Positions 47,408 through 55,287 of a DNA stretch of 64,000 nt are shown in pieces. A program made the position numbers and the translations under genes. The notes under the pieces are model-generated. The model did not search any database and had not been told where the DNA came from. It saw only the letters and a list, made by a program, of their open reading frames with translations. Origin of the DNA: Phycisphaerales bacterium (lineage in GTDB: Bacteria > Planctomycetota > Phycisphaerae > Phycisphaerales > UBA1924). The stretch is taken from assembly GCA_029260495.1 (NCBI GenBank), contig JAJDDD010000017.1:1-64000 (forward strand). Reading direction: 5' to 3'. Positions within the stretch are counted from its first letter, which is position 1, and each line of letters begins with the position of its first letter.

Positions 47408-50400
47408 CTACCCCACCGGCTGAAGCGCAGGCTCGATCGCGGGCGCTTCTGCTTCACCTTCAAACTCTGCTTCGTGCTCGAGTGTTGCGCCTTCTTTCCG
47501 CACGTCGCCGGCTTTGGCAAAGGCTGCGGTCAGTCCCCGCCGCATATCGAGCACAAGACTGAACGTCAGCGGCACGAGCACGAGTGTAAAGATTGTCGAA
47601 ACCAGCAGCCCGCCAATCACCACCGACCCAAGCCCGCGATACAGCTCAGAGCCCGCGCCGGGAAAGAGCGCCAAAGGCGCCATCCCGCCGACACTGGTCA
47701 GCGTTCCCATGAAGATCGGGCGAAATCGCGTGCGCACACTCTGTGTGATCGCATCAATCGGCGCCAAACGCTCGGAGCGGGCGCCATCTCCAAACTCCAT
47801 GCCCCGCATGAAGTTCAACGACTGATGCACAATCAAAATCGCGTTGTTCACCACAACGCCAATAAGTATGACAAACCCGAGCATTGTCAGCACATCAAGC
47901 TGCTGCGGCGCGATGACAGGGTTGGCGAGTGTTATTTCGTGGACAATCTTGAGCCCCGCGAATCCGCCGACAATCGCAAGCGGAACCGTAAACATAATCA
48001 CCAGCGGATACAGGAAACTCTCAAACAGCGCCGCCATCAATAAATAGGTCACGACGAGCGCCCAGATCAGTCGCGCGCCTGCAAGTTGCGGCGCGATCGA
48101 CACCGCCAGAATCATCGCTGCGAGGGTTCCCCCGAGGAAGAGCGCGCCAGCGGCGCCATAGGCGATCCGAGCGCTGCTTCGGCGAAAAGCGCGCATCGCA
48201 ATGAAGACCGACAGCAGGGCGGTGATCAGAAAAAATACACCCGCTGCTCCCTTGCCCACGGTTTGCCACCCGCTGGTTTTCTCCGCAGACGTCGCGGCGC
48301 CAACAAGCGAACGCTTCACCTCATCAAGCTTCGCCGCCGTCCCCTCTAGGCGCACGCGCATGGTGTGATCAATCAGCCCCGCTTGCTCCACCGGCGCAAT
48401 GATCTCCTCCTGCACCTCGCGCATCACATCTTCAAGTGCGCTCCCTTTCGGAGGTGTGATGCGCAACGTCACGCTCGGCAACTCTTCGATTCTCTGAATC
48501 TGCTGTGGCGCCAGCGCAGGCTCGATCGAAACCACCGAATCAAGCGGCACAACTCGCCCCGCCGGCGTATAGATCGGCACCGACGCCAACTGCTCCTTGT
48601 AAAGCAGCCTTCCGCCCTTCGGAATCAACACAAGATCAATCGTGTCGTCATTCAGACTAAAATCACCAACAAAGGCCCCATCGAAGAGCGCGCGCATAGA
48701 CTCGCCAACATCGCGCGTGCGCAGTCCCAACTCGCGCCCGAGATTGGTCAGGCGCAGTTGCCATTCCTGGCGATCAAGATTGAAGTTGGAAGGATCCGGC
48801 CGCACATCCTCATGCCCATACCGAGCGCTGGCGAGGCTGTTCATGCGGTCAGCCGCCGCGCGAACCCTGTCGAGTCGCGGGCCAGATATTTCAAGATCAA
48901 TCGTGTTCCCGCCGCCCGCGCCGCGCCCGAAGAGCGACGACTGCCTCGCCCCGCCAAACGCATCCGGAATGTCATTCATCGCGTTGGTCAGAAGCTGGCC
49001 CACAGGCAAAACAACTTGCTCAATCTGACTCCGCGCCCCGATGAACATCCCCCCGCCAAAGGAGCCAATGAAGTAGTTCTTGATCGGCACAGGATCGAAT
49101 GGCGCACCATTGCGCTGCGGGATCGGCGCGAGCCTGGCGGCCGCCTGCGCATCATTGACATCCGTTTGGATGTAGGGCTTCAAGTCATTTTCAATCCGGT
49201 TGGCAATCTCCAGCCGTTGATCCACCGAATATCCCGGCGGAATCAGAAGTCCCCCAAAGACAAGGTTGCGATTGCCCGCAGGGAGGTAATCGAGGGGCGG
49301 CATAAGCATCTTCGCGCCGAGTAGTGAAAGCGCCATCATTCCGACAATCACCGCCGGACGCAGCGTCCACCCGCGCCAACCCGTCATCAGCCAGCGCACA
49401 CCCAGCGCAGCGCTCTCAACCAGCCGGCTGAACATCGGCGCGACGCCAAACAACTTATCCCACGCCCGACGAATCGGCCCATCATCCTCAGGCGAATGAT
49501 GCGAAAGCCAGCGCGAGCACGCCGCAGGAATCACAGTGATCGAAACAATGAGCGAAAGCGCAACCGCGGCGATAATCGCAATAGATATATCGGAAAAGAG
49601 CTGACCCGCTTCCTCTTGAATCGTGAGCACAGGAACAAAAACCGCAACTGTCGTCAGTGTCGAAGCAAGAATCGCGCCCCAGACCTCCCGCCCACCTCGA
49701 TACGCCGCCTGCTTGGGGGAATCACCCGATTGAAGCCTGCGGTAAATGTTCTCAAGCACAACAATCGCGTTGTCCACCACCATCCCCACCGCGAACGCAA
49801 GCCCAGCAAGCGAAATAACATTCAGCGTGCGATGCAGCGCCAACATAATCAAAAACGAACCGATCACCGAAATCGGAATCGCCAGCGCCACAACACCCGT
49901 CGAAACAAACGATCGCAGGAACAAGAGCAACACCGCCATCGCGATCAACCCGCCAACCCACAGATTCTGCTTGACCAGATTAATCGCAGAATCAATGTAA
50001 ACCGTCTCGTCATACACCTGCCGCATGCGCAGGTCCGGCCCAACCTCGGGATGAATATTTGGAAGTATGTCAGCCCGAATATCATCCAGGCGTGCCCGAA
50101 ACTCCGCCATCAGGTTCAGCACGTTGGCGTTTGACTGCCGAATGCAGTTCATCGCGACCGCAGCGTTCCCGTTCCCGCGCACAAACCCGCGAATCTTCTG
50201 GTGCCCAATATCAACATCGGCCACGTCGCGCACAAAAATCGGGGCGCCGTTCACATACTTGATAATCGTGTCCAGCACGTCGTTGGCTTTTTCAAACCGA
50301 CCAATCACACGGATCGAGTAGTCGCGCTTCCCCTCAGCGATCTCCCCTGCAGAAATATTGTTGTTCTCCGCCCGCAGCGCATCGAGCAAATCCGTATACG

Positions 50401-51019
50401 TCACCTGATACTGAACCAATGCTCCGGGATCGACCAGCACCCGCACCTCGCGCTCGCGCCCGCCGTAAATGTTGATCTCCGCCACACCGTCAATGCGTTC
50501 AAGATAAGGCTTCACCTCTTTCTCAAGCGCATCAAAGATCGTTGTGATGTCAAAATCCGGATGCAGGTGAAGCCGATCAGGCTCCACCTCGATAATGATC
50601 CACGCGATCGCATTCTCACTCGCGCCGTCTGCCGCCTTAATCGTCGGCTCGTCCGCATCGTCAGGATAATCAGGCACCTGGCGCAGCGCGTCGGAAACCT
50701 CCTGCAACGCGCGATTAATATCTGAGCCAATATTAAACTCAAGCGTTATCTGCGACTGCCCCTGGCTCGACACCGAGCGCATCGATCGCAGATTCGCAAC
50801 GTTCTTGAGTTGCTCCTCCTGCTCCTTGGTGATTTCATCAACAATCTCTTCGGGGTTGCGTCCGGTCCAGTTCGTCTGCACCGTCACTATCGGGCGATCA
50901 ACATTTGGCACAAGCTGCACCGGGATCTGCGTTACGCCGATCAACCCGAACATCACAAGCAAGATCACACCCACCGCCACTGCGACAGGCTTCTGAATGA
51001 CGAACCGAACAATATCCAT
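47408..51019 (-). CDS. RND efflux transporter (HAE1 type) with two extra membrane helices
   Basis: This is a 1203-residue proton-driven exporter of the AcrB/MexB class. The N-terminal helix (VAVAVGVILLVMFGLIGV), IPVQLVPNVDRPIVTVQTNWTGRNPEE and the following porter region are typical, and the central helices include the expected charged sites (VGMVVDNAIVVLEN). It is about 170 residues longer than usual. After the second periplasmic loop (ending near SAEKTSGWQT) and before the standard helix (LIWALVVTYLLMAALFESF), two additional hydrophobic helices occur (AAGVFFLITALLSVFIAM and IAYGAAGALFLGGTLAAMILAVS). The start overlaps the adaptor stop by one base (TGATG). Confidence 0.92.
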   Translation of the reverse strand: MDIVRFVIQKPVAVAVGVILLVMFGLIGVTQIPVQLVPNVDRPIVTVQTNWTGRNPEEIVDEITKEQEEQLKNVANLRSMRSVSSQGQSQITLEFNIGSDINRALQEVSDALRQVPDYPDDADEPTIKAADGASENAIAWIIIEVEPDRLHLHPDFDITTIFDALEKEVKPYLERIDGVAEINIYGGREREVRVLVDPGALVQYQVTYTDLLDALRAENNNISAGEIAEGKRDYSIRVIGRFEKANDVLDTIIKYVNGAPIFVRDVADVDIGHQKIRGFVRGNGNAAVAMNCIRQSNANVLNLMAEFRARLDDIRADILPNIHPEVGPDLRMRQVYDETVYIDSAINLVKQNLWVGGLIAMAVLLLFLRSFVSTGVVALAIPISVIGSFLIMLALHRTLNVISLAGLAFAVGMVVDNAIVVLENIYRRLQSGDSPKQAAYRGGREVWGAILASTLTTVAVFVPVLTIQEEAGQLFSDISIAIIAAVALSLIVSITVIPAACSRWLSHHSPEDDGPIRRAWDKLFGVAPMFSRLVESAALGVRWLMTGWRGWTLRPAVIVGMMALSLLGAKMLMPPLDYLPAGNRNLVFGGLLIPPGYSVDQRLEIANRIENDLKPYIQTDVNDAQAAARLAPIPQRNGAPFDPVPIKNYFIGSFGGGMFIGARSQIEQVVLPVGQLLTNAMNDIPDAFGGARQSSLFGRGAGGGNTIDLEISGPRLDRVRAAADRMNSLASARYGHEDVRPDPSNFNLDRQEWQLRLTNLGRELGLRTRDVGESMRALFDGAFVGDFSLNDDTIDLVLIPKGGRLLYKEQLASVPIYTPAGRVVPLDSVVSIEPALAPQQIQRIEELPSVTLRITPPKGSALEDVMREVQEEIIAPVEQAGLIDHTMRVRLEGTAAKLDEVKRSLVGAATSAEKTSGWQTVGKGAAGVFFLITALLSVFIAMRAFRRSSARIAYGAAGALFLGGTLAAMILAVSIAPQLAGARLIWALVVTYLLMAALFESFLYPLVIMFTVPLAIVGGFAGLKIVHEITLANPVIAPQQLDVLTMLGFVILIGVVVNNAILIVHQSLNFMRGMEFGDGARSERLAPIDAITQSVRTRFRPIFMGTLTSVGGMAPLALFPGAGSELYRGLGSVVIGGLLVSTIFTLVLVPLTFSLVLDMRRGLTAAFAKAGDVRKEGATLEHEAEFEGEAEAPAIEPALQPVG

Positions 51020-52236
51020 CAGCCGGCCGATCCTTGTTCTGATTCGCCCGTCTCCGCCCGCGGCGGAATCATTTCCGCACCGCCATTCCCCCCGTTCTTC
51101 TTAGGCGCGCCGGGCACAATTTTAATTGGCTGCGTGGGATACAGCCGTTCATTGCCTTCTACGATCAGCAACATCCCGGGTTTCACACGCTCTGAACGAA
51201 TAACAACCCGATCCCCCCCAACCGCGTACTGCGGCTCAATCCGCGCCGCCATCGCCATTCCGCCCATATCAAAGTACACATACGCCCCCGCGTCGTCGCG
51301 CAAAATCGAATCCTTATGAATCGTCAGCATTTCTTCACGGCCGCCCGTCGGGATCAGCCCGCTCAGGCTCATGCCCGGCGAAAGCTTCCTGTCCGTATTG
51401 TCCAGACTGATGCGCACCGGAATCATCCGGCTCACCGGATCCGCATCAGGCACAATCCCCGCGATCGGAGCCTCGATCAACTCCCCCGTCGCCGTGATCT
51501 TCAACTGCACCGTCACATCAGGCCCGCCAAGTAGCGCCGCAAACCGATCAGGCGTCGCCAGCCAGGCGTCAATCTCATCCAGCGAAACAATCTCAACCAC
51601 CGCTTCCCCGTCAGCAACCCACTGCCCCACCTCCGTGCGCTTGTCCACAACAGCCCCCGCGAAAGGGGCTCGAATCAACATATTGTCCTTACGCTCCGCC
51701 ATCCGTTCGATACTGAGTGATGCAACATCGCGCTCAGCCTCCGCCTGATCCAGCCTCGCTTTCGTTTCATCCAAAAGCGACACCGCGTCATCAAACTCCG
51801 ATTGCGTCGCAGAGCCGCGCTCAAGAAGCTGCTTCAGCCGCCCCAAATCGCGAGTCGCAATCTCCACCTGCACCTTCCGCTCCCGCGCCACCCCCTCACG
51901 CCGACGCAGCTCAGCCGCCGCTTCACGCAAGTCAATATCAAGCAGCGTCGAATCAAGACGCGCGATCGACTGATTCGCCTCAATCACATCACCCCGCTCG
52001 ACAATCAACTCCACAACACGCCCCGACTCCTCCGACGCCACAAGCGATCGCCGACGCGCACGCAACTCACCCGTCACGCTGCGCATCGCGCCAATCTTCT
52101 CCAGCCGCGCAGCGTCCACCACCACCCGCGCCGCCGGCGGCCCCGAAGATTCACCCGCCTGCGCAAGCAATACAGATGAACCGACCATGGCGCCAACAAT
52201 CGACGCAAGCGCTCCAACCAACAAGACTCTTTTCAC
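51019..52236 (-). CDS. Periplasmic adaptor (membrane fusion) subunit of the RND pump
   Basis: This is a 405-residue adaptor that should link the RND pump to an outer-membrane channel. A signal/anchor segment lies at 1-25 (VLLVGALASIVGAMVGSSVLLAQAG). It is followed by the lipoyl-like half ESGRVVELIVERGDVIEANQSIARLD, a helical hairpin (about 80-160, DLRE...SIERMAERKD), then IRAPFAGAVVDKRTEVGQWVADGEAVVEIVSLDEI and the beta-barrel part. GTG 52236 was chosen because it gives a short signal peptide; the upstream extension to 52374 looks unlike family members. No outer-membrane factor gene is in the window, so one must come from elsewhere. Confidence 0.9.
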   Translation of the reverse strand: MKRVLLVGALASIVGAMVGSSVLLAQAGESSGPPAARVVVDAARLEKIGAMRSVTGELRARRRSLVASEESGRVVELIVERGDVIEANQSIARLDSTLLDIDLREAAAELRRREGVARERKVQVEIATRDLGRLKQLLERGSATQSEFDDAVSLLDETKARLDQAEAERDVASLSIERMAERKDNMLIRAPFAGAVVDKRTEVGQWVADGEAVVEIVSLDEIDAWLATPDRFAALLGGPDVTVQLKITATGELIEAPIAGIVPDADPVSRMIPVRISLDNTDRKLSPGMSLSGLIPTGGREEMLTIHKDSILRDDAGAYVYFDMGGMAMAARIEPQYAVGGDRVVIRSERVKPGMLLIVEGNERLYPTQPIKIVPGAPKKNGGNGGAEMIPPRAETGESEQGSAG

Positions 52237-52550
52237 AGGTGCAACTCTTTTTGTAAGAAGGCCGGCGCCCGAGGGCCGGTGAACATGAGACTTCCAGACG
52301 GACGCGCCAATCCGTTCCGGCCAGCAGAGGACATAGTGGAACGCACGATCCAGTTTCCAGCAAGCGCAGGTCAAAGCCTAGGCGCTCACGCCAACGCCTG
52401 CCTCCTGCCTCCTGCCTCCTGTCACCCGTGCCCGATAACCCCCTTGCCACCCTTTTAAGAGCCACCCACGGATATGCCTCCGCCCCGCATGGCGCCTTTT
52501 CGTCTCTTCAAAGGCCATATCCGCGCCGGCGCCCCCCCGAGCTCACTGCG
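52237..52550. other. Intergenic region upstream of the RND operon
   Basis: This stretch of 314 bases has no credible gene. A short tandem repeat, CCTCCTG x3, occupies 52401-52421, with a partial fourth unit on its left. Promoter elements for the RND operon on the minus strand should lie here, but I see no convincing -35/-10 pair. Confidence 0.5.
52401..52421. repeat. Short tandem repeat (7-base unit CCTCCTG x3)
   Basis: Three perfect copies of CCTCCTG, with a partial CCTG before them. It lies in the intergenic region upstream of the efflux operon. Confidence 0.85.
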
Positions 52551-53262
52551 TCAACCGGGCCGAACACCGCGACGCCGCCGGGCGATGAAAGGCGCGCTGG
52601 CTGTGAGAAGAACAGCGGCGCTTCCAGGGGCGGGGATGACTGTGATGGGAGCGTCGATCTCTGACTCGTAGGCCCAGCGTGTGGCGTAAAGATCATGACC
52701 GCCATTGGGAAGCTGAAAGAGCTCAAAGCCAATCCAGCCGTAATGCCAGTTGGTGGCCTCAAGCCCGTCGAATGCGCCGGCGAATCGCACGCCGATGAAA
52801 CTCTCGCCGAGCGGAGCGATGGCGCCAGTTGAGATGAGCGAGCCGCCTCCAGTGAAGGTGCTGCTGAAGACTCCCCCCCCCCCCAGTTGGAATGACGCCG
52901 CCGGGACCGATCAATTCCCTAGGGTCTGATGGAATAACAAGGCCATTTGAAGAGTTCAGATTGCCGCCAAAGCCAGATCCTATACCGCCATTCACTGTTA
53001 AAATGTTGTTGAACACGTCGAAGGTTTCGGTAACGAAGAAATCAAAGGTGCCAATAATTTCAAATCCGTTTGATCTTCCGGGCTGGTCCGTCGAGGGGCG
53101 CGTGATGTCGAGCAGCCCTAACTCTTCCCAATCCGCATGACCCGGCTCGCCCGGCGGCGGGTTGGTGAAAATGAACGGGTCAGCAAGTGCGACGGCGCTG
53201 TAAAAAAAGAGCGCCATCCCACCAGCGAATAAACGCACTATCAATGTATTGAAACCTCTCAT
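52551..53262 (-). pseudogene. PEP-CTERM-like secreted protein, frameshifted in a poly-G tract
   Basis: This second copy of the neighbouring gene (53285-54010) starts at ATG 53262 with a signal peptide (RLFAGGMALFFYSAVALAD). It follows the intact copy closely up to VIPTGGGG, where a run of 12 G (coding strand) shifts the frame. Downstream, the correct frame resumes in another phase (VFSSTFTGGGS, APLGESFIGVRFAGA, FELFQLPNGGHDLYATRWAYES), ending with VIPAPGSAAVLLTAS and RRRRG, a PEP-CTERM-like tail. With 11 or 14 G the frame is open over its full length. It is therefore either a phase-variable gene caught in the off state, a pseudogene, or a sequencing error in the homopolymer. Confidence 0.75.
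52873..52884. repeat. Poly-C/poly-G homopolymer (12 bases) inside a coding region
   Basis: Twelve C on the plus strand (G on the coding strand) interrupt the PEP-CTERM-like gene. The intact paralogue has G8 followed by TGG at the same place (53625-53632), preceded by an A that breaks the run. Long G runs are prone to slippage, so length changes would switch the frame. Confidence 0.9.
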
Positions 53263-53284
53263 TGATTCACTCAGCCTCTCTGTC

Positions 53285-54010
53285 TCATGGTCCTGTGCAG
53301 CTCGGCGCCGCGCTTCTTCTCCGCCGGCGCGCGATGAAAGACGCGCTTGCAGCGAGAAAAACAACAGCTGTTCCGGGGGTGGGGATGACGGCGATAGCGG
53401 TGTCGAGCTCAGTTTCATACGCCCAGCGTGTGGCGTAAAGATCGTGGCCACCATTGGGAAGTTGGAAGAGCTCGAAACCAATCCAGCCATATTTCCAGTT
53501 GGTTATCTCGATCCCGTCGTGCGCGCCGGCGAAGCGCACTGCGATGAAACTCTCGCCGAGCGGTGCGAATCTTTCGGCTTTGATGAGGGCGCCACCTCCG
53601 GTGAAGGTGTCAAAGAACACACCACCCCCCCCTCCCGTTGGTATAACGCCGCCGGGTCCGATGATGTCGCCGGGTTCGGACGGGATCAGTACGTTCCCTG
53701 AATTCATCCGACCACCAAAGCCGGTGTCGAGGACGCCATTTACGGTCAAGGTGTTGTTGAATACGTCGAACTCCTCGCGAATGAAGAGTTCAAAAGTTCC
53801 GATTATTTCAAATCCATTCGACAGCCCCGGTTGATCCGTTGATGGGCGCGTGATGTCAAGAAGCTCAAGGGCTTCCCAATCCGCATGACCAGGCTCGCCC
53901 GGCGGCGGGTTGGTGAACAAAATTGGTTCAGCATGTGCGACAGCGCCTAACAGGGGCATCGCCATTGCTCCTGCCAGCAAGCGATATATCAAGTGGGCGT
54001 CTTTCATCAT
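53285..54010 (-). CDS. PEP-CTERM-like secreted protein (intact paralogue)
   Basis: This is a 241-residue protein with a signal peptide (LIYRLLAGAMAMPLLGAVAHAE). The mature part has a beta-rich body with GFEIIGTFELFIREEFDVFNNTLTV and FELFQLPNGGHDLYATRWAYETEL, like lectin- or Ig-type sheets. The end is VIPTPGTAVVFLAASASFIARRRRR, a PEP-CTERM-like sorting tail (Pro, hydrophobic stretch, Arg cluster). Proteins with this tail are cut and anchored or exported by exosortase systems; none is seen in this window. The tandem paralogue follows 22 bases downstream. Confidence 0.75.
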   Translation of the reverse strand: MMKDAHLIYRLLAGAMAMPLLGAVAHAEPILFTNPPPGEPGHADWEALELLDITRPSTDQPGLSNGFEIIGTFELFIREEFDVFNNTLTVNGVLDTGFGGRMNSGNVLIPSEPGDIIGPGGVIPTGGGGGVFFDTFTGGGALIKAERFAPLGESFIAVRFAGAHDGIEITNWKYGWIGFELFQLPNGGHDLYATRWAYETELDTAIAVIPTPGTAVVFLAASASFIARRRRRSAAPSCTGP

Positions 54011-54540: not shown

Positions 54541-55287
54541 ATGTTGACCGGTGCTTGTGAATGCCGCCCTGCCGGGGCAATCGCTGTCCTGACGGCTGCC
54601 TTCCTTTCCTCCGCAGCAATCGCTGGAACTTCAAACCTCACCTACGTCCTCTCAAACCATCCCGATGCCCAGGAAGATCCGCCCCCCTACGGCCTGCGCA
54701 GCGACAACATGTTCACCAGCGCCGGAGGCTCCGGTGGAGTCACCACCTTCAGCTTTGACACCATTCAGGGCGTCACACTCACCGTCGCTGAAACCATGAC
54801 GTCGCGCACCATCACCATTCAGGGCGTCATTGAAGGCGGCGAAAGAGATTCAGGATTCGGCGTCGGATTCTTCGATCTCAACTTCACATACAAGGAAAAC
54901 GTCAACGAGTCCGGCACTGGCTGGTTCGTCTCGCCAACCTCACTCGAAAACAAAGGCTCCATCACCGCTCTCGCGGGCAACACTGACATCGCCCAGGGCA
55001 CAGTCTTTGACTTCTTCGAAGACCCCACCGCAGAAAACCCCTTCGCATTCTTTCAGGATGATCACCGCCTGCTCCAATCCACCGGCGGCAAACAGGACTT
55101 CCCCGAAGCTGGCATGGGCTACTTCGTCGGCAGAGGCTGGACCGCACTCCAGGCCGACGGCAGAAACTCCGAAGGCACACAAGACTGGCTCTTCATCGGC
55201 CAGCTCATCCCCCTCCCCAACGCCGCCGGCCTCACCATGCTCGGCCTCTCCGCCGTCGCCATCCGACGCCGCCGCGCTATTCAGTAA
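54541..55287 (+). CDS. PEP-CTERM-like secreted protein
   Basis: This is a 248-residue protein with a signal peptide (to about AAIAG). The mature part is beta-rich (SNLTYVLSNHPDAQEDPPPYGLRS, GVTLTVAETMTSRTITIQGVIEGG) with several Gly/Asp turns. The C-terminus has the sorting tail LPNAAGLTMLGLSAVAIRRRRAIQ, in which PLPN replaces PEP and a hydrophobic stretch precedes the Arg cluster. Exosortase handling is likely but the enzyme is not in this window. It ends at a strong terminator shared with the convergent 55374-57281 gene. Confidence 0.78.
   Translation: MLTGACECRPAGAIAVLTAAFLSSAAIAGTSNLTYVLSNHPDAQEDPPPYGLRSDNMFTSAGGSGGVTTFSFDTIQGVTLTVAETMTSRTITIQGVIEGGERDSGFGVGFFDLNFTYKENVNESGTGWFVSPTSLENKGSITALAGNTDIAQGTVFDFFEDPTAENPFAFFQDDHRLLQSTGGKQDFPEAGMGYFVGRGWTALQADGRNSEGTQDWLFIGQLIPLPNAAGLTMLGLSAVAIRRRRAIQ

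Follow-up and report, generated by a model that had tools for sequence, protein, structure and literature searches.

A 12-G tract in a tandem gene pair of a Phycisphaerales bacterium is a candidate phase-variation switch on a putatively anchored secreted protein family

Is a gene that is broken at a run of identical bases dead, misassembled or merely switched off? The question arises in a 64,000-nucleotide stretch of a Phycisphaerales bacterium genome (GenBank assembly GCA_029260495.1, contig JAJDDD010000017.1, positions 1 to 64,000; hereafter the window), in which one of two tandem genes loses its frame at a run of 12 G. Phase variation driven by slippage is best known from host-associated bacteria, and a sequence-only reading of the window had proposed that the tract belongs to a phase-variable surface protein. 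The answer that we favour, at somewhat better than an even chance, is that the tract is a phase-variable (contingency) locus, sitting in the downstream member of a pair of genes for secreted proteins that are probably anchored at the C terminus.

Both genes lie on the reverse strand. Copy a (53285..54010) is an intact ORF of 241 aa, and its paralogue copy b (52551..53262), which would encode a secreted, C-terminally anchored protein of the same family, begins 22 bases downstream on the same strand, such that the two probably form one operon. The sole frame break of copy b is a run of exactly 12 G (12 C on the forward strand; 52873..52884), the longest homopolymer of the window, which codes for a glycine run; the parts before and behind it are each open, in differing frames. 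As assembled, copy b reads to a stop at 52759–52761 and yields a product of 167 aa with a basic end (13 K/R and 5 H in the last 37 aa). The C-terminal half encoded behind the tract (52554..52872, reverse strand) is a module common to the proteins of two related genomes, SJ192 and G127, and with it the truncated product lacks the YGWI and WAYE motifs, the Pro-x-Pro motif, the predicted membrane helix and the arginines. At the equivalent site of copy a, the coding strand reads GGGA and then 8 G (53625..53632, reverse strand). All of this agrees with the earlier description of two neighbouring paralogues, one intact and one frameshifted, with a single break at 12 G and an A interrupting the run of the intact copy; its further statement, that copy b would be in frame with 11 or 14 G, also holds. 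Downstream of the pair (47408–52374, reverse strand) lie two ORFs that we take to encode an RND-type efflux transporter and its membrane-fusion partner. A divergent neighbour on the other side (54541–55287, forward strand) begins with a stretch like a signal peptide and matches PEP-CTERM weakly (13.4 bits, E 0.5).

In the proposed mechanism, slipped-strand mispairing during replication would change the number of G: a length of 11 or 14 would give a complete, anchored copy b; 13, or the assembled 12, would cost it the conserved C-terminal module and the anchor; and copy a, with its short interrupted run, would stay on. Tract length in residues would matter little, because the encoded glycines belong to a predicted flexible loop; in a structure model taken as indicative (mean pLDDT 65), the glycine run falls within the low-confidence residues 126–149. 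Contingency loci of this type have a mononucleotide tract of at least about 8 in coding sequence or a promoter, here 12 G in copy b; a change in tract length would toggle the copy b product, and the off-state frame is otherwise intact. On this reading, copy b would be expressed and displayed at the surface, and the tract would switch.

An alternative account is that copy b is a recent pseudogene: a G run present by chance slipped once and destroyed the frame, the spare paralogue next door suffices, and there is no reversible switching. We consider this unlikely, although it is the strongest of the alternatives. The two copies share 71% identity before the tract and 76% behind it. Compared with each other, they give a dN/dS of 0.159 for the part before the tract and a similar 0.229 for the part behind it, and changes at third positions prevail in both; the frame behind the tract was thus kept by selection over most of the period since the duplication. 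Since copy b also shows no other lesion, a pseudogenizing break would have to be very young. The open frame downstream was set aside as proof of selection and dN/dS used in its place: in neutral simulations at 0.2–0.4 changes per site, 11–27% of sequences were likewise stop-free behind the tract.

A pseudogene account also gains from the ordinary number of long runs in the window's genome, which is not above chance. The assembly (3.197 Mb, 22 contigs) holds just two G/C runs of at least 10; in a 451-kb sample of it, a G/C run is lengthened by one base with a probability of about 0.25, from which about 6 runs of at least 10 and 0.4 runs of at least 12 would be expected in 3.197 Mb. The place of the tract, unlike the number, counts in favour of a switch: that one of the two runs falls within the 1,463-bp locus of the pair has a probability of about 0.0009. 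The other, a run of 11 C (contig 6, 66349–66359), was set aside as a second switch: it is in frame in the N-terminal stretch, near the 5′ end, of a gene that we take to be thiC-like, whose upstream sequence is similar to a TPP riboswitch.

Might the break be an error of sequencing or assembly, with a true length that is in frame and both copies intact? Homopolymers of about 12 are error-prone in sequencing, and long G runs can be unreliable in assemblies of this sort: among the 14 long tracts inspected in two relatives (G012 and G017), 9 lay at contig ends or N gaps, and assembly artefacts are common in these metagenome-assembled genomes (MAGs). Their loci (L083–L111) include very long G/C runs, with up to 59 C in those inspected, at contig ends and N gaps. 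The window tract, by contrast, is single, lies about 36 kb from the contig end and is not at an N gap; the 451-kb sample is about 74% long ORFs (at least 250 aa), a coverage at odds with widespread frame errors; and a corrected length of 11 or 14 would still leave a long G tract in a coding gene. We therefore regard an error as distinctly unlikely, less probable than a young pseudogene.

For the same reason, tract counts in relatives at large are not used as evidence. G11 matches occur in 55 of 61 relatives, and we had considered long G tracts as a lineage-wide feature of the family; this was rejected given the 9 of 14 at contig ends or N gaps in G012 and G017, and is countered too by three relatives (G060, G144 and G197) whose tracts of at least 11 lie away from family matches, none being found near them. 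Among the relatives searched there was no further genome of the window's genus (g1). G129, of the same genus as SJ192, has one tract of at least 11, away from family genes; that the family genes of these four genomes lack a tract of this length nearby counts against a switch in the window. Upstream of a family gene in G129 (contig 10, 25428–26098; locus L249), at the distance at which the SJ192 tracts lie, there is an N gap flanked by G; a long G tract may be what interrupted the assembly at that point.

What kind of protein would be switched? Copies a and b gave no Pfam or NCBIfam match at E ≤ 5, only insignificant matches in the PDB and no plasmid match, and a protein scan of one genome per species (84,980 species) returned no relative of the pair. 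Relatives were found in 8 of 100 other genomes in one search and in 23 of 162 other genomes of the taxonomic family in another, often as tandem arrays (G060, G011 and G025). The common plan comprises a signal peptide, LDIT and Q motifs, a YGWI/WAYETE module, Pro-x-Pro, a membrane helix and arginines. The sequence-only reading had called the tail PEP-CTERM-like, a label that is only partly borne out. The tail has the structural make-up of a PEP-CTERM anchor (Pro-x-Pro, a predicted helix at residues 213–232 of copy a, and a basic end of arginines), and the window's genome carries two exosortase genes (PF09721 matches over the cut-off), but the pair is not among the 28 places listed for the PEP-CTERM profile PF07589 at E ≤ 1. 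The likeness is thus one of structure and not a profile match.

The family link to relatives was drawn with a profile built from SJ192 and G127 sequences only, without those of the window. It aligned with the window protein at E 1.1e-11 (hhalign), with strong similarity limited to the C-terminal half, and matched copy a at E 1.4e-10 and the copy b fragment at E 3e-12 (hmmsearch); among the ORFs of the 451-kb sample, the pair gave the only matches at E ≤ 1. On the family tree, the window protein forms a long branch, and the tract-bearing genes of SJ192 are scattered over several branches. Both the long branch and the limited reach of the similarity count against the switch reading.

SJ192 (G128 in our set), a Phycisphaerales MAG of the same family as the window's genome and of a sister genus, holds 15 family genes by profile search. 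Shortly before 11 of these lies a run of 7–16 G, starting 62–79 bases ahead of the profile match; those without a run are on contigs 51, 107 and 16, together with the second gene of contig 32. One of the 11 tract-bearing genes, on contig 66, is broken by two in-frame stops, and this broken member elsewhere in the family lends the pseudogene account for copy b some weight. In ten cases (loci L174, L175, L176, L177, L179, L184, L242, L243, L245 and L251), all before paralogous surface-protein genes, the run sits between the boxes TTG[CA]AA and T[AG]GCGT, in fuller form TTG[CA]AACC, G7 to G16, T[AG]GCGTA. The boxes and a GGGAG are conserved in the alignment, and the remainder varies. The total spacers are 20, 18, 19, 17, 17, 14, 17, 18, 18 and 17, mostly 17–18: longer runs pair with shorter flanks, and the summed spacer varies less than expected (permutation p 0.0015; p 0.002 without the element of 7 G). 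Such a spacing rule is hard to explain without function.

A scan for the element with at least 8 G, in one genome per species (84,980 species), gave 9 matches, all in SJ192; three of them (contigs 101, 102 and 117) are identical in sequence, two of these three being at contig ends, and the elements make up at least 8 separate loci within a single gene family. Without the G requirement, SJ192 has 11 copies of the box pair, every one filled with 7–15 G, against 3 among the remaining 162 genomes of the taxonomic family; for a backward control of the box pair, the 163 genomes together yielded 12 matches, of which none was in SJ192. In the window's genome the box pair was not found, and the window gene has no such element. 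With two contig-end copies left out, 8 of 24 SJ192 tracts of at least 11 are followed by a family gene within 200 nt. A tract between two conserved boxes with a spacing optimum is the make-up of a phase-variable promoter, and we read the boxes, from their sequence and spacing, as a likely promoter whose spacer would be the G tract. A sigma-70 reading was discarded, as a scan of one locus gave no sigma-70-type site; the boxes may resemble those of the ECF type. Two 11-G tracts elsewhere in SJ192 (L182:5692 and L185:5522), in frame in a very long ORF and in an ORF that we take by eye to be carboxypeptidase-like, are possible further contingency loci.

In SJ192 a partner gene, dockerin-like at its product's end, follows the family gene, being nearby in at least 7 of the 15 family loci, and it is the partner that carries the tracts in G127, a member of the same genus. 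There, three of six tracts of at least 11 lie in cassettes with this protein family (p about 1e-5), each directly behind a signal peptide (SFA[VA]LASPARAVGG) and ahead of a protein that is about 470 aa long and dockerin-like at its end (L166:4390–4401, L167:4636–4647 and L168:7633–7643; that of L167 is preceded by GGT and GT repeats). A tract is present in all three full-length dockerin-like genes (12, 12 and 11 G), none of which is in frame in the assembly; the other two dockerin-like matches cover C-terminal pieces only. The Pfam dockerin profile scored 24.0 bits on an SJ192 copy, over the cut-off, and 16.7 bits, below it, on the G127 copy tested. A search of the window's genome for the dockerin-like partner gene gave no match.

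With G tracts at family or partner genes in three genomes of two genera, and a spacing rule in SJ192, a switch is the best account of the window tract, which is probably one member of a group of phase-variation switches that this family bears at different positions. That relatives of the family carry G tracts at switch positions also weighs against a pseudogene. At only just better than an even chance, we further propose that environmental Phycisphaerales have a set of poly-G contingency switches on an anchored surface family and its secreted, dockerin-bearing partners, with three independent placements: a promoter spacer (SJ192, at least 8 loci), the position just behind the partner's signal peptide (G127, 3 loci) and the interior of the anchored protein (the window). 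The placement in the window, mid-gene as opposed to upstream in SJ192 or behind a signal peptide in G127, speaks against a switch. Nor did related genes bear out a tract at the equivalent site: the run of copy a is 8 G, and of 44 homologue loci, taken with 1.5-kb flanks that in part overlap, 43 carry no G/C run longer than 8, the exception being an SJ192 locus. A same-site tract is not strictly defining, and the tracts of SJ192 and G127 lie elsewhere; its absence nevertheless lowers the claim, and a pseudogene account fits a family in which most homologues are tractless. The earlier proposal of a phase-variable surface protein thus gains from the tracts at family and partner genes in SJ192 and G127 and loses by the lack of conservation of its own tract.

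The same lack of conservation bears on a last alternative, programmed slippage at the tract by RNA polymerase or by the ribosome, through which one DNA sequence would give both products. Homopolymers of at least 8 are described as slip-prone in programmed transcriptional realignment, but the characteristic motifs are A or T runs, at least in the available part of that paper (PMC3711429). A programmed site should moreover be conserved in homologues, as this tract is not, and the SJ192 tracts lie outside coding sequence. We consider programmed slippage very improbable.

Were a switch confirmed, a single protein family would have gained one kind of switch in three separate positions, and, as the planctomycetes concerned are presumably free-living, selection for cell-to-cell surface diversity would come from phages, predators or substrates rather than from host immunity. 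In practical terms, a break at a G tract is no ground for writing off a gene in such genomes, and not every long G tract in them should be trusted. The sequence-only reading had known of no such system in Phycisphaerae, and our searches of the literature on Phycisphaerae, Planctomycetes and PEP-CTERM concur: no such switch is reported for Planctomycetota or Phycisphaerae in the literature searched, beyond which most subscription journals and preprints lie. A Tuwongella paper that surfaced with the phase-variable and repeat literature uses the word for microscopy, and neither PMC3711429 nor PMC4060949, as far as their accessible portions go, reports a planctomycete switch.

Each of the three placements has a counterpart among known systems. 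The SJ192 elements resemble the promoter-spacer phase variation of fetA and porA in Neisseria, where, in the parts of the report available, a mononucleotide tract lies in a promoter spacer and has similar lengths (C10–C14 in the gonococcal fetA promoter; PMC5320596). They differ in that the one SJ192 locus scanned gave no sigma-70-type boxes and in that the elements occur at 8 or more distinct loci of one gene family; the window gene has no such element. The G127 tracts, 11–12 G after the signal peptide and out of frame in all three genes, recall translational phase variation near the 5′ end of coding sequences, although the G127 proteins are secreted and dockerin-like and known from a MAG assembly, and the window tract is mid-gene. 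The window tract would work like the C-terminal phase variation of Helicobacter canadensis, in which, by the excerpted account, a tract late in the ORF alters the C terminus, translation is not abolished and variation is reported at the level of reads (PMC2823697). In the window, the alternative product would lose a putative anchor, and the tract is known from one assembly. A relative of the Planctomycetota, the phylum Verrucomicrobia, includes Akkermansia muciniphila. For this species, the portion of the report available describes putative mononucleotide phase variation, with long G repeats in genes for surface structures, and the presence of PEP-CTERM proteins (PMC3048395). There, on the same partial account, single tracts lie in capsule genes, whereas here tracts recur on an anchored family and its partner.
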